This document shows, piece by piece, positions 18,612 through 23,028 of a DNA stretch of 64,000 nucleotides. Position numbers and translations under genes: made by a program. Origin of the DNA: Rhodospirillales bacterium (GTDB lineage Bacteria > Pseudomonadota > Alphaproteobacteria > Rhodospirillales > Shumkoniaceae). Each line of letters opens with the position of its first letter. Within the stretch, counting starts at the first letter, position 1. Location: positions 1-64,000 of the forward strand of contig JAHDSF010000008.1 of assembly GCA_018432935.1 (NCBI GenBank). The letters are read 5' to 3'. Below the pieces are notes generated by a model. The model was given only the letters and a program-made list of their open reading frames with translations, was not told the DNA's origin and searched no databases.

Positions 18612-18715
18612 CTTTCTTGTCACCTCGGCCAAACCAGCGCCGCCGCTCGACGTCGGAGGCGGATCGGCGTACACTGATGCTAATGGTCTGAAATCGTTCA
18701 CAAGAAGGCGCCCCC

Positions 18716-20074
18716 GTGGCCCGCGAACACGCGCCGGACGAGTTCTCCGAAGGGTTGAGCCCCTCAGGGAGGGCTTCCCCAGCCCCAGGGCAGGTGCGCG
18801 GTCGGAGGATATCCTTCGTCCTCAGCGTCTTTGCCATTCTCGCCGCCACCGTGGTCGGGGTGGTGGCGACGCTGACCGGGTACACGCACTTCGCGGCAAG
18901 CGAGGCCACCGAGGCGATGGCGCAGCAGCTGCTTGACCGGACGACGGCCGCGGTCGCGGCCCGGATCGAGCGTCATCTGCTTCCGGCGGCCAGCCTCGCC
19001 GATATGGCCTCGGCGCTGCCCACGGTTGCCTCGGCGCCCGACCTTCTGATCCATCCCGTCGCTTGGCAGCTGATGCGCGCGGAGTCGGAATTCCGCTCCG
19101 TCTACTCGGCCTACATCGGCTTTGCCGACGGCCGCTTCTATCAGGTTATCTCGCTCGACGCGGCCGGGGGGCAGGCCCGAACGGCGCACGACGCGCCTGC
19201 CGCGGCGCGCTTCCTGCAACGTACCATCCTGCCCCGCGCCGACGGCAAGCGAATGCAGCTCTGGAGCTTCCTCGGCGAGGACCGGCGGCTGCTGGATTCC
19301 TGGGTCGACGCCGAAGCCGACTTCGATCCCCGCCAGCGTCCCTGGTACGTCTCCGCGATGGCCCGGGAAGCTCAGGTCATGACCGCCCTCTACACCTTCC
19401 ACAGCCTCGGCCTGCCCGGCTTCACCCTGGCGCAGCGGTTCGATGGCGACGTTCCCGGGGTATTCGGGGTCGATGTCACGTCGGCCGATCTGTCGCATTT
19501 CCTGCAGTCGGTACTGCCCACCGTCAAGGCACGGATGGCAATCTTCGATGAGGCAGGAAGCATCGTCGCGGCACCCGGGTATTCGGCCGACCTCCTAGCG
19601 AGGCGCGGCAGCCCGGCGACCCTCGTGGTGCCGGCCGCCAAACTCGGCGATCCCGTCATGGCCGAGCTGATCGCCGGAGTGCCCGAGAAGGGCTCGCCCC
19701 GGGTCGCCGGCAGGTCGTCCGACGGCCGCCATCTGCTGAGCGTTGCGGCGATCGATGCCGGTCCGGCGGCACGCCTGTACGTGGGCCTGGTGGCCCCGGT
19801 GTCCGACTTCGTCGCGCCTCTGGAAACGATGCGCAACCGCGGCCTCGCGTTTGTAGCCCTGTTCCTGCTGATCGGCCTGCCCCTCGTCTACGTGGTGGCG
19901 CGCCGCATGTCGCGCGCCCTGCTTGATGTGGCCGGTCAGATCCGCTGTCTGCCGCAACCCGGCCGGGAGGACATCGTCGTTCAGTCCTTCGTCAAGGAGA
20001 TCAACATGCTTGCCGAAGCGCTTGCCGACGCAAGAGAATCTTTGACCGCAGCAAGACGCAAGGCCGATCAGTGA
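18716..20074 (+). CDS. Cache-domain membrane sensor lacking an output domain
   Basis: A 452-residue protein with a cytoplasmic head, a membrane helix (~32-55), a large periplasmic dCache-like region (~60-365, with QLMRAESEFRSVYSAYIGFADG, DFDPRQRPWYVSAM and FGVDVTSADLSHFL), a second helix (~372-394) and a short HAMP-like end (ARRMSRALLDVAGQI). It then stops: no kinase, GGDEF, HD-GYP or chemoreceptor module follows. DPRQRPWY is the ligand-pocket signature of Cache sensors. The GTG at 18716 has AAGAAGG upstream. It overlaps the solute-binding-protein gene by four bases. Confidence 0.85.
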   Translation: MAREHAPDEFSEGLSPSGRASPAPGQVRGRRISFVLSVFAILAATVVGVVATLTGYTHFAASEATEAMAQQLLDRTTAAVAARIERHLLPAASLADMASALPTVASAPDLLIHPVAWQLMRAESEFRSVYSAYIGFADGRFYQVISLDAAGGQARTAHDAPAAARFLQRTILPRADGKRMQLWSFLGEDRRLLDSWVDAEADFDPRQRPWYVSAMAREAQVMTALYTFHSLGLPGFTLAQRFDGDVPGVFGVDVTSADLSHFLQSVLPTVKARMAIFDEAGSIVAAPGYSADLLARRGSPATLVVPAAKLGDPVMAELIAGVPEKGSPRVAGRSSDGRHLLSVAAIDAGPAARLYVGLVAPVSDFVAPLETMRNRGLAFVALFLLIGLPLVYVVARRMSRALLDVAGQIRCLPQPGREDIVVQSFVKEINMLAEALADARESLTAARRKADQ

Positions 20075-21468
20075 TAACCCGGCGTCGCCTGCTGGAGGTC
20101 TCGATGGGCGCGGCGCTCGCCTGCCGCAGTGCCGCAGCGCGAGCCGACGACGGAACTCTCGAACTGTGGACCAGCGAGACCGAGCCGGTACGGCTCGCCA
20201 CCATGAACTATCTTGCCGCCGCCTATCGGGCATGGGCGGACGGCCCGCGGATCGTCATCCGCAGCATCGACGAGCACCGGATCGTCGGGGCCGTGCTGCA
20301 GGCTCCGCCGCATCAGCGTCCCGACATCGTCAACACGGCGGGCGATCTGCTGCTGTCGCTCGACCGGCTTGGCCTCGCCGACCAGAGCGCCCAGGCCGAG
20401 GTGGTGTCCCGGGTGGGCGCCTTGCGGTTCTTCCCGGGCGTCCTCGCCGGCTTCCGCCTTGCCGACGGGGCAATCGCCGCCATCCCCTTCCACGGCTGGC
20501 CGCAGGTGCTGTGGTACCGGCGCCATTGGTTCGAAGATGCAGGGCTTTCGCCTCCTGACACCATCGCCGCGCTGGAGCGCGCCGTCGCTGTCCTTCACCG
20601 CCCCGACCGGGGCCGGGTCGGCATCGTGCTCGGCACCGACGACGGTCATTACACCCAACAGTTCTTCGCCCAGCTCGCGCGGACCCATGGAGCCCGCCTG
20701 TTCCTCGCCGATGGCACGCCCCATCTCGATACGCCGGAGGTGCGCGAGGCGCTCGCCTGCTATGCCCGACTGGCCGCCTTCGGTCCGCCCGGCCAGCACA
20801 ACTGGCGGGCGCGCGACTGGTATCTCCGGGGTCGCGCCGCGGTCATGGTCTACTCGACCCTGATCATGGACGACCTGGCGCTGTCCTCGGTGGCAGCAGG
20901 CTCGCTGCGGGGCGCGAGCTTCCCCGGCCTCGACCCCGCTCCCTTCGATCCCGGGCTGGTTGCCGGTACCGGCCAGGTCACCAATGTCGCCGGCGTCGCG
21001 GAAGGCGTGTACGCCGCCATCAACGGGCTCGGCGTGACCGCCCTGGACCCTGCGCGCAGCGCCGCCGCGGTCCGTTTCATCGAGTTCCTGTTCCGCCCCG
21101 ACGCCTACATCGTCTGGCTGCACATGTCGCCCGGGGGCATGTTGCCGGTGCTGCAGGGGGTGGCGGAATCCGATGCCTTCCTGCGCGATCCGGCAGGAGT
21201 CCTGCAACGTTTCGGCCGCGCCCGTATCAAGGCGCTGGCCGAGGCGCTCGCTCTGCCCGGCGCGTTCTCGCACTGGGGCGGCAGAGTGGTGCCCGAAGCC
21301 GGGACCGCCTACGCCGACGGCCTGGTGTCCCGGATGGTCGTCCGCGTCCTCGACGGGGCCGACCCGGCGGCCAGCGCCGCCGCCGCCCAAAGCGAGGCGG
21401 AGGAGCTGCTGCAGGAATCGGCCTCGTCGGGCAGCGCCCTGCGGCGGCAGGCGCCGACGGTTCCCTAA
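20071..21468 (+). CDS. Tat-exported extracellular solute-binding protein, family 1
   Basis: A 465-residue periplasmic binding protein of the ABC sugar/oligomer type. The signal MITRRRLLEVSMGAALACRSAAARA holds a twin-arginine motif (TRRRLL), unlike the usual Sec route. The mature body has ELWTSETEPVR, AAIPFHGWPQVLWYRRHWFEDAGL (the family's W-Y-x-K/R-D hinge region) and GRAAVMVYST. No permease or ATPase gene accompanies it. Its ATG overlaps the Cache sensor stop, so it may present ligand to that sensor rather than to a transporter. Confidence 0.85.
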   Translation: MITRRRLLEVSMGAALACRSAAARADDGTLELWTSETEPVRLATMNYLAAAYRAWADGPRIVIRSIDEHRIVGAVLQAPPHQRPDIVNTAGDLLLSLDRLGLADQSAQAEVVSRVGALRFFPGVLAGFRLADGAIAAIPFHGWPQVLWYRRHWFEDAGLSPPDTIAALERAVAVLHRPDRGRVGIVLGTDDGHYTQQFFAQLARTHGARLFLADGTPHLDTPEVREALACYARLAAFGPPGQHNWRARDWYLRGRAAVMVYSTLIMDDLALSSVAAGSLRGASFPGLDPAPFDPGLVAGTGQVTNVAGVAEGVYAAINGLGVTALDPARSAAAVRFIEFLFRPDAYIVWLHMSPGGMLPVLQGVAESDAFLRDPAGVLQRFGRARIKALAEALALPGAFSHWGGRVVPEAGTAYADGLVSRMVVRVLDGADPAASAAAAQSEAEELLQESASSGSALRRQAPTVP

Positions 21469-21498: not shown

Positions 21499-22581
21499 TC
21501 AGCCGAGGCCGACCGGCCTCGCCGCCGGAAGACGGCCGGGATCGAATGGCGCCAGGTCGACGGAGGCGGCGGCGCCGTCGACGATCAACTCCGCGAGCGC
21601 CTCGCCGGTCGCGGGGGCGTTCAGGATGCCCCATACGCTGTGGCCGGTGGCGAGGTAGGCGCCTTCCACCCCCGGCACCCTGCCGATCAGCGGCAAGCCG
21701 TCCGCCGTCACCGGCCGGAAGCAGGCCTGGGCGGCCACCACCTTCGCCCGGCCAAGCACCGGGGAGAAGCCGGTGCACATCGCGTGCAGGCGTTCCAGCG
21801 CGCCGGGGTCCGGGCCGACCTCGGCCGGGTCGAGCGGCACCGTGCTCCGGCTCGAGATGGCGCAGACATAGGTGGTGCCGTCCGGCCGCGGGAAGATTTC
21901 CGGGGCGTAGCCCGAACCGTCGACGTCGCGTTCCTCCAGGAACACGGCCTCGGCCGGCAGGTTGGCCTCGAACACCATGCTGTGACCCTTGAGGCCGAAC
22001 ACGGCCGGCACGGGAAGCCAGCCGGAAGCCAGCACCGACCACGGCCCCATCGCGACGACAAGTGCGTCCGCCTCCAGCGGGGCCCCGTCGACGCCGACGC
22101 CGATCACCTTCCCTCCCTTGACGACAATGCCTGTGATCTCACCCCGGCGCAGGCTCGCTCCACCCTTCCGGCCAGCCTCCATCAAGGCGCCGGTGAAGGC
22201 GCCGGGAAGGACCTGGGCGGTGGTATCGGGGCCGCCGAGAAGCCGGCTGATGGTCACCCGCTTCCCCAGCCAGTCGGGGCGGCGGATGCCGCCGCTCAGG
22301 CGCAGGCCGGAGAACCCGCCATAGGTGGTCATGCGGCGGTATCCCCACGCCTCTCCGCCCAGCGTCTCCGCCAGCTCGGCATGGAGGGCGAAGCTGCGGC
22401 GCGCCAGTGCCTGCAGCGGCGTGCCGTCGCACCAGTCGAGCGCCAGGAAGCCACCGGACTTGCCGGACGCCGCGCAGGCCGTGCCCGTTCTCTCGACGAC
22501 CTCCACCCCGATGCCACGGCGGCTCAGGGACCAGGCGACCGCAGCACCGATCACGCCTCCGCCGCAGACCACGACCCGCAT
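21499..22581 (-). CDS. FAD-dependent oxidoreductase, DadA/glycine-oxidase type
   Basis: A 360-residue amine oxidase-like flavoprotein. MRVVVCGGGVIGAAVAWSL is the FAD-binding Rossmann motif, followed by GVEVVERTG. SGKSGGFLALDWCDG and the C-terminal RPVTADGLPLIGRVPGVEGAYLATGHSVWGI with APATGEALAELI match DadA/glycine oxidase relatives. It should oxidise a secondary or D-amine, using oxygen or a quinone. ATG 22581 is chosen because it starts the Rossmann motif; upstream frame is non-coding shadow. It converges on the solute-binding-protein gene with 30 bases between. Confidence 0.85.
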   Translation of the reverse strand: MRVVVCGGGVIGAAVAWSLSRRGIGVEVVERTGTACAASGKSGGFLALDWCDGTPLQALARRSFALHAELAETLGGEAWGYRRMTTYGGFSGLRLSGGIRRPDWLGKRVTISRLLGGPDTTAQVLPGAFTGALMEAGRKGGASLRRGEITGIVVKGGKVIGVGVDGAPLEADALVVAMGPWSVLASGWLPVPAVFGLKGHSMVFEANLPAEAVFLEERDVDGSGYAPEIFPRPDGTTYVCAISSRSTVPLDPAEVGPDPGALERLHAMCTGFSPVLGRAKVVAAQACFRPVTADGLPLIGRVPGVEGAYLATGHSVWGILNAPATGEALAELIVDGAAASVDLAPFDPGRLPAARPVGLG

Positions 22582-22695
22582 GCATGACCTCGTGCCGCTG
22601 CCGTCCCAGCTCTCGATATGGGGAGCCCGACCCGCTTGGTGCGGCCGCCGCGCCTCGCCATCTCGAAGATACCAGCCGGGGCAAAGGAGGACGTC

Positions 22696-23028
22696 GTGAC
22701 ACAGCCGAGGATCGCCCGCATCTGGCGAGGCCGGACCGCCGCCGCCAGGGCGGAGGAGTACGCCCGCTACCTGTTCGAGGTCGGGGTCAAGCCGCTGGCC
22801 GAGAAGGCCCTGGGCGTGCAGATGCTGCGCGAAGACCGCGACGGCGAGACCGAGTTCATGACCATCTCGTACTGGGAGAGCGTCGAGGCGATGTCGCGCT
22901 TCGCCGGCCCCGACCCGCGCCGCATCCACCACCTGGAGCGGGACGCCGAGTTCCTGATCGAGCTGCCGGCGGGCGTCCAGGTGCTGGAGATCGTGGACAC
23001 CCTGGGCCGGGTCGGTGAGAAGGGCTGA
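22696..23028 (+). CDS. Antibiotic-biosynthesis-monooxygenase-like protein
   Basis: A 110-residue dimeric alpha+beta barrel protein of the ABM type. RIARIWRGRTAAARAEEYARYLFEVGVKPL and EFMTISYWESVEAMSRFAGPDP match the family. Relatives are small oxygenases or unassigned stress proteins. The GTG at 22696 follows AAAGGAGG by five bases, so I prefer it to the ATG at 22618. Divergent from the flavin oxidase, and 94 bases ahead of pepN. Confidence 0.78.
   Translation: MTQPRIARIWRGRTAAARAEEYARYLFEVGVKPLAEKALGVQMLREDRDGETEFMTISYWESVEAMSRFAGPDPRRIHHLERDAEFLIELPAGVQVLEIVDTLGRVGEKG

Follow-up and report, generated by a model that had tools for sequence, protein, structure and literature searches.

In the window, the 64,000-nucleotide stretch of a Rhodospirillales bacterium (contig JAHDSF010000008.1) that was analysed as a whole, a Cache sensor gene and the solute-binding protein (SBP) gene that it overlaps probably represent an SBP-coupled Cache adenylate cyclase receptor that lost its output on this lineage. 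The missing output is, judging from gene comparison, a loss on the window's lineage and not the design of the unit, because the sensor carries an adenylate cyclase in all six other genomes that possess a close SBP. The unit descends from SBP-coupled Cache adenylate cyclases and resembles them, but it is not a member of this receptor class in this genome since the output is absent, that is, the Guanylate_cyc domain of a class III adenylate cyclase receptor is lacking from the window's sensor.

Layout of the locus and architecture of the two proteins

Both genes lie on the forward strand. The sensor gene (18716..20074; protein P0001, 452 aa) begins with a GTG codon 7 nt behind AAGAAGG (18702..18708), a likely ribosome-binding site recognised by eye, and its product shares 43% identity with the sensor portion of a Cache-adenylate cyclase found in its relative G002. 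Its stop codon and the start of the SBP gene (20071..21468; P0002, 465 aa) share the tetranucleotide GTGA (20071..20074). This four-base overlap, noted in the original prediction, is exact, as are the coordinates, the strand and the lengths of the two genes. Because the SnoaL-like, TetR and CoA transferase genes upstream are on the minus strand and the next gene after the SBP, a FAD oxidoreductase assigned by Pfam (DAO; 21499-22707, minus strand), is convergent, the pair stands alone.

Hydropathy places transmembrane helices at residues 32-50 (18809..18865; helix 34-99 in the structure model) and 377-395 (19844..19900) of the sensor, and together with the model it defines an extracytoplasmic ligand domain between them. 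This periplasmic dCache domain spans residues 61-372 approximately (18896..19831), as delimited by the model, its fold matches (Z about 19-21) and alignment. A HAMP-like segment with its linker follows (residues 397-446, 19904..20053, by alignment), and the protein finishes with TAARRKADQ (20045..20071), the presumed site of the lost cyclase according to alignment and a shuffle test. The sensor indeed ends soon after its second helix and carries no output domain, as had been proposed: 57 residues remain past the helix and Pfam finds no such domain. The Cache domain itself is detected by Pfam below threshold (dCache_1, E=0.0011, 19 bits against a gathering cut-off of 45), and relatives likewise fall under the cut-off with 30.3 and 20.4 bits. 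The AlphaFold2 model, however, is that of a clear dCache (pLDDT 82.4, pTM 0.71), which matches PscC (6mni; Z 20.9 over 231 residues, rmsd 3.0), with further matches to Mlp24 (6ios, Z 20.4) and to CtaA, PctA and 7k5n (Z about 19-20). Residues 353-593 of PDB 5ere, a 540-residue 'extracellular ligand binding receptor' that is possibly a natural binding-protein/Cache fusion, also match the Cache model (Z 17.2).

The dCache receptors PctA, CtaA, Mlp24 and 7k5n, the last a proline-bound Aeromonas diguanylate cyclase with the same DFDPRxRPWY stretch as the sensor, share its fold but differ from it in having chemotaxis or GGDEF outputs, and their structures show direct binding of the ligand without an SBP. 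Parts of two reports (PMC11245519, PMC10104139) define the motif of amino-acid dCache receptors in PctA as Y121, R126, W128, Y129, Y144 and D173. The corresponding places are occupied in the sensor by F203, R208, W210, Y211, Y226 and D253, as assigned from spacing and sequence alignment and not from superposition; R, W, Y, Y and D are thus kept, and Y121 is replaced by F203, as in proline-bound 7k5n. Among the neighbours of 20 class-level Cache-cyclase loci, an Asp/Glu racemase appears at two and a sodium:dicarboxylate symporter (SDF) at three. Amino acids or dicarboxylates would fit as putative small ligands of the Cache domain, whereas the SBP belongs to a sugar-binding type.

The SBP passes the Pfam SBP_bac_1 model (52.2 bits, cut-off 26) as well as SBP_bac_8. 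By sequence profile its closest solved relatives are YcjN-type sugar-binding proteins (8ula, YcjN 8vqk and 7v09), which belong to ABC importers according to the entry title, while the SBP described here has no permease. As had been suggested, the protein lacks transporter partners: no ABC-importer permease or ATPase gene lies alongside, and the 121 ABC-permease (PF00528) matches of the genome are all off the window's contig, C15. Nor does the genome hold a closely related SBP with a transporter, the next SBPs matching partly with E about 1e-7. Tat leaders follow a consensus of the S/T-R-R-x-F-L-K type. The Tat-type signal that had been claimed is visible by eye as TRRRLLE and an ARA site in the leader MITRRRLLEVSM...ARA when set against this consensus; export itself is only predicted. 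This twin-arginine leader (MITRRRLLEVSMGAALACRSAAARAD, 20071..20148) has counterparts in the SBPs of G002, G041, G606 and G604, which also start with RR; within the best-supported clade, each of the five SBPs has an RR leader.

Intact relatives and probable loss of the cyclase

Sensor matches were obtained in 21 genomes among 60 relatives. The best homologues come from G002, a member of the same family (43% identity), and from G041, Roseospirillum parvum (38%); they measure 772 and 778 aa and carry a Guanylate_cyc domain after the HAMP segment, with the stretches FTD, KFIGD and NMAAR, which we take to be class III catalytic motifs. The SBP homologues of these genomes (53% and 50%, respectively) start inside the cyclase stop codon, in ATGA, which compares with the GTGA of the window. 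When the search was extended to the 317 genomes of the order, a close SBP was found in seven, the window's included, and in all seven it lies directly behind the sensor. A lack of conservation would have spoken against the pair, and the opposite was observed. A cyclase separates sensor and SBP in six of the seven (G002, G041, G604, G606, G610 and G635) and is absent only from the window; in G635 the sensor is split over two ORFs and Guanylate_cyc was found in the split gene. Therefore, the description of the sensor as lacking an output holds for this genome and not for its family.

The six Cache-HAMP-class III adenylate cyclase loci share with the window the sensor family, the SBP directly behind and short junctions: the overlap is 4 nt long in the window and in both G002 and G041, possibly also in G604 (where the value comes from ORF coordinates, the alternative start being an ATG whose first base is the final base of the stop), and it is 1 nt in G606. 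They differ in that the relatives keep the cyclase and, where aligned, the usual HAMP spacing, the window having neither. In phylogenetic trees the window groups with G002 for the SBP (99/99) and, more weakly, for the sensor (93/93), and loss on the window's branch is therefore the simplest reading; the loss is known from a single genome of the genus. A scan of contigs with the sensor alone gave 94 pattern matches and no relative, and the same scan with the SBP alignment gave two relatives. The SBP relatives detected by profile at L088 and L095 adjoin membrane proteins (MalF/MalG-type permeases by eye) and no sensor. Two of the receptor loci have additional SBP or SBP-like genes in their surroundings. 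In G002 an SBP-ATPase-permease set precedes the receptor pair in the same direction (L067:4922-8987), and an SBP-like ORF with a HAMP-GAF-HD-GYP-like ORF (by eye) lies just before the Rhodospira Cache-cyclase/SBP pair (L076:2270-5553), a locus that would contain two SBP-receptor units in a row.

The alignment locates the break. The window's sensor stops matching its relatives at the SL of the linker, which leaves its nine last residues for the C-terminus of the cyclase. TAARRKADQ matched the C-termini of the four close cyclases better than 98% of shuffles (shuffle fraction 0.018), but the resemblance is weak against all 47 cyclases (fraction 0.109), and the fraction against the linker is 0.46. 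The lengths suggest that about 290-310 codons were deleted in frame from within the gene, which would have removed the cyclase and left the reading frame and the 4-nt overlap in place. Sensor matches with E <= 1e-40 occur in 111 of the 317 genomes of the order, and among the matches listed only the window spans the sensor to the end of HAMP (3-425 of 432) in a frame shorter than 540 aa. Of the other short frames listed (G644:C20, G590:C2, G569:C119, G597, G548:C103 and G488), the first two (L162 and L163) were inspected as candidate output-less relatives and discarded, since in each a frameshift has broken the sensor and its second half is encoded by a separate ORF. At class level (385 genomes, 85 with a match) no other frame shorter than 500 aa covers the Cache part, all of them covering the cyclase side only. 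One 362-aa ORF with only dCache_1, situated directly downstream of a Cache-cyclase (L211:2724-3812), is maybe a second output-less sensor or else a frameshifted gene. An output domain just missed by frameshift, which would have undermined the original prediction, was also considered for the window itself and rejected, along with a displaced domain: the SBP starts in the sensor stop and the next gene is convergent, leaving no room at the locus, and the six Guanylate_cyc matches of the genome are all off contig C15.

From these comparisons, the ancestor would have been a two-gene receptor operon composed of a membrane dCache-HAMP-adenylate cyclase and a translationally coupled, secreted SBP without a transporter. 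By analogy with NspS-MbaA, the loaded SBP, a small ligand in the Cache pocket, or both, would alter the Cache domain of the intact relatives and set cAMP production. On the window's lineage, the in-frame deletion of the cyclase would have spared the stop codon, the overlap shared with the SBP gene and, probably, the final codons. The remnant may still capture ligand, with no known way to make a signal.

State of the remnant and alternative readings

In an alignment of 23 sensors, the window's is alone in lacking three residues of the first HAMP helix and in having two extra ones in the connector, indels that are present in none of the 22 relatives, and it carries A439 where 21 of these 22 have M. 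The Cache part retains 39 of 47 conserved positions (those kept in at least 16 of the 22 other sensors), compared to 28-43 of 45-48 in the others; a decay of the sensor by substitution, which was considered, is not seen in these counts. Unique substitutions in HAMP (four in the window and two in G002) show no significant excess, and in the distal Cache module they amount to 15 in the window versus five in G002 (p=0.04, uncorrected for the five regions tested). On the basis of these Cache conserved-position counts and of the HAMP indel and substitution counts, the outside of the protein seems preserved apart from some drift, and spacing on the inside seems free. Most likely, the protein is a stump of a receptor that has retained its outside half and in which signalling no longer constrains the inside half. 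It counts against this reading that both ORFs are intact and that the Cache domain looks constrained, as would be expected of a functional protein no less than after a recent loss, and that the substitution excess lies in the distal Cache module instead of the HAMP.

The original prediction held that the pair may be a ligand-capture and sensing unit that signals through another protein. The coupling between the Cache sensor and SBP genes has turned out to be real and conserved, and no support was obtained for signalling through another protein. That the output-less sensor acts in trans by helix pairing with some other receptor, kinase or cyclase seems distinctly unlikely. Two intact and coupled genes, a conserved Cache domain and six other Guanylate_cyc proteins in the genome speak for it; yet the genome has no paralogous sensor, these other cyclases have a sensor or architecture of their own (CHASE2 twice, SAM-AAA, multi-helix and others), the window alone has a changed spacing in the HAMP, through which the signal would have to pass, and the relatives signal in cis. 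The search for a separate partner, which had been recommended, revealed neither a paralogous receptor nor a detached cyclase of the family, since none of the six PF00211 proteins has the family's sensor or an exposed matching linker. Retention of the pair for its outside half, with the membrane-anchored Cache and the SBP working as a ligand buffer or decoy or feeding a transporter encoded elsewhere, is in keeping with the conservation of both and the loss of the output, and 121 permease matches exist elsewhere in the genome; however, none of the genome's transporters comes with an SBP closely related to this one and no precedent was found, and this possibility is considered unlikely. A technical origin of the truncation, in which the true gene has a cyclase and the draft lost about 1 kb by an assembly or sequencing error, is highly improbable. 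The assembly is a draft of 59 contigs and the comparison covers this one genome of the genus, but a random collapse would rarely stay in frame, end on a correctly placed stop and retain the 4-nt overlap, and the HAMP indels, some 26-36 codons ahead of the junction, point to divergence once the cyclase had been lost.

Solute-binding proteins behind Cache-cyclases

Pairing with an SBP extends beyond the close relatives of the window. Within the order, 19 of 47 sampled Cache-cyclase loci have an SBP directly downstream, 14 of the DctP family and five of the SBP_bac_1/8 type, which are not 19 independent events, as some come from the same genome or genus and many loci from two genera. The 47 loci comprise 35 from a set of 40 plus 12 further ones, and exclude L160 (split sensor; SBP and cyclase counted apart) and L162, L163, L178 and L195, where no cyclase was found; the neighbour of L178, which is not an SBP, is among the 29 downstream proteins scanned. 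For some neighbours the choice followed a simple ORF score and may have hit the wrong frame, as with L068:11309, which was replaced by the known SBP. As a control, the best 25 of the 52 families recorded for 28 upstream neighbours include one SBP_bac_5 and no DctP. Outside the order, SBP and DctP profiles detected no pairing at the 20 class-level Cache-cyclase loci, and no SBP was present among the ten downstream ORFs of such loci scanned by Pfam.

The 14 DctP pairs (L109, L110, L117, L164-L169, L171, L173, L174, L176 and L196), distributed over 13 genomes, have no DctM on the same contig except in G543, a single-contig genome in which the nearest DctM lies some 348 kb off; in G507, not a single DctM match was obtained. 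Like the window's family, they combine the same type of receptor with an SBP directly downstream, here of the TRAP type and with no DctM nearby; unlike the window, their SBP is of an unrelated family and the cyclase is present. DctP-paired Cache-adenylate cyclases are thus a candidate class of SBP-cAMP receptors. The broader idea that the order holds an undescribed class in which transporter-free SBPs (SBP_bac_1 or DctP type) control Cache adenylate cyclases, and that in this organism an output-less version has been retained together with its SBP for a new role, as a ligand-gated competitor or adaptor, appears quite improbable as a whole.

The nearest known arrangement is NspS-MbaA of Vibrio cholerae and Sinorhizobium meliloti, in which NspS is a polyamine-type SBP and MbaA a GGDEF-EAL protein acting on c-di-GMP. 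In both cases a binding protein akin to transporter SBPs is dedicated to the two-helix membrane receptor encoded next to it, and the receptor makes or breaks a second messenger. In place of GGDEF-EAL, the relatives described here carry an adenylate cyclase, and the window is left without any output; the SBPs differ as well, polyamine-type in NspS versus SBP_bac_1 with an RR leader here. The window thus pairs a receptor gene with an SBP gene that has no transporter of its own, and lacks the cytoplasmic output domain of an NspS-MbaA-type system. The SBP-receptor coupling is putative at the protein level here, as is SBP-Cache contact in any member of the family. The relevant passages of a 2022 survey (PMC9602780) name chemoreceptors, sensor kinases, diguanylate cyclases/phosphodiesterases and Ser/Thr kinases as SBP-switched receptors, with no adenylate cyclases listed in them. 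No SBP-controlled adenylate cyclase was found in the literature searched (mostly open literature, including parts of PMC9602780 and PMC5812351), which is not proof that such a receptor is new. If true, the receptor class of this order would provide cAMP signalling with an input from SBPs. Because the operon is conserved in Roseospirillum parvum, which is in culture, the idea of an SBP-driven cAMP receptor can be tested directly there, and the window supplies for comparison with the intact form a version whose output was deleted naturally.

Some neighbouring genes of other Cache receptors were recorded in the same survey. An SBP_bac_3 gene (L111:6229-6996) and a Peripla_BP_5 gene (L119:6111-7439) lie just upstream of Cache receptors whose output is HD-GYP by eye. 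A cyclic-nucleotide-binding protein is encoded directly downstream of a Cache-cyclase at L103:6182-6607, and this domain occurs in two of the 29 downstream neighbours.
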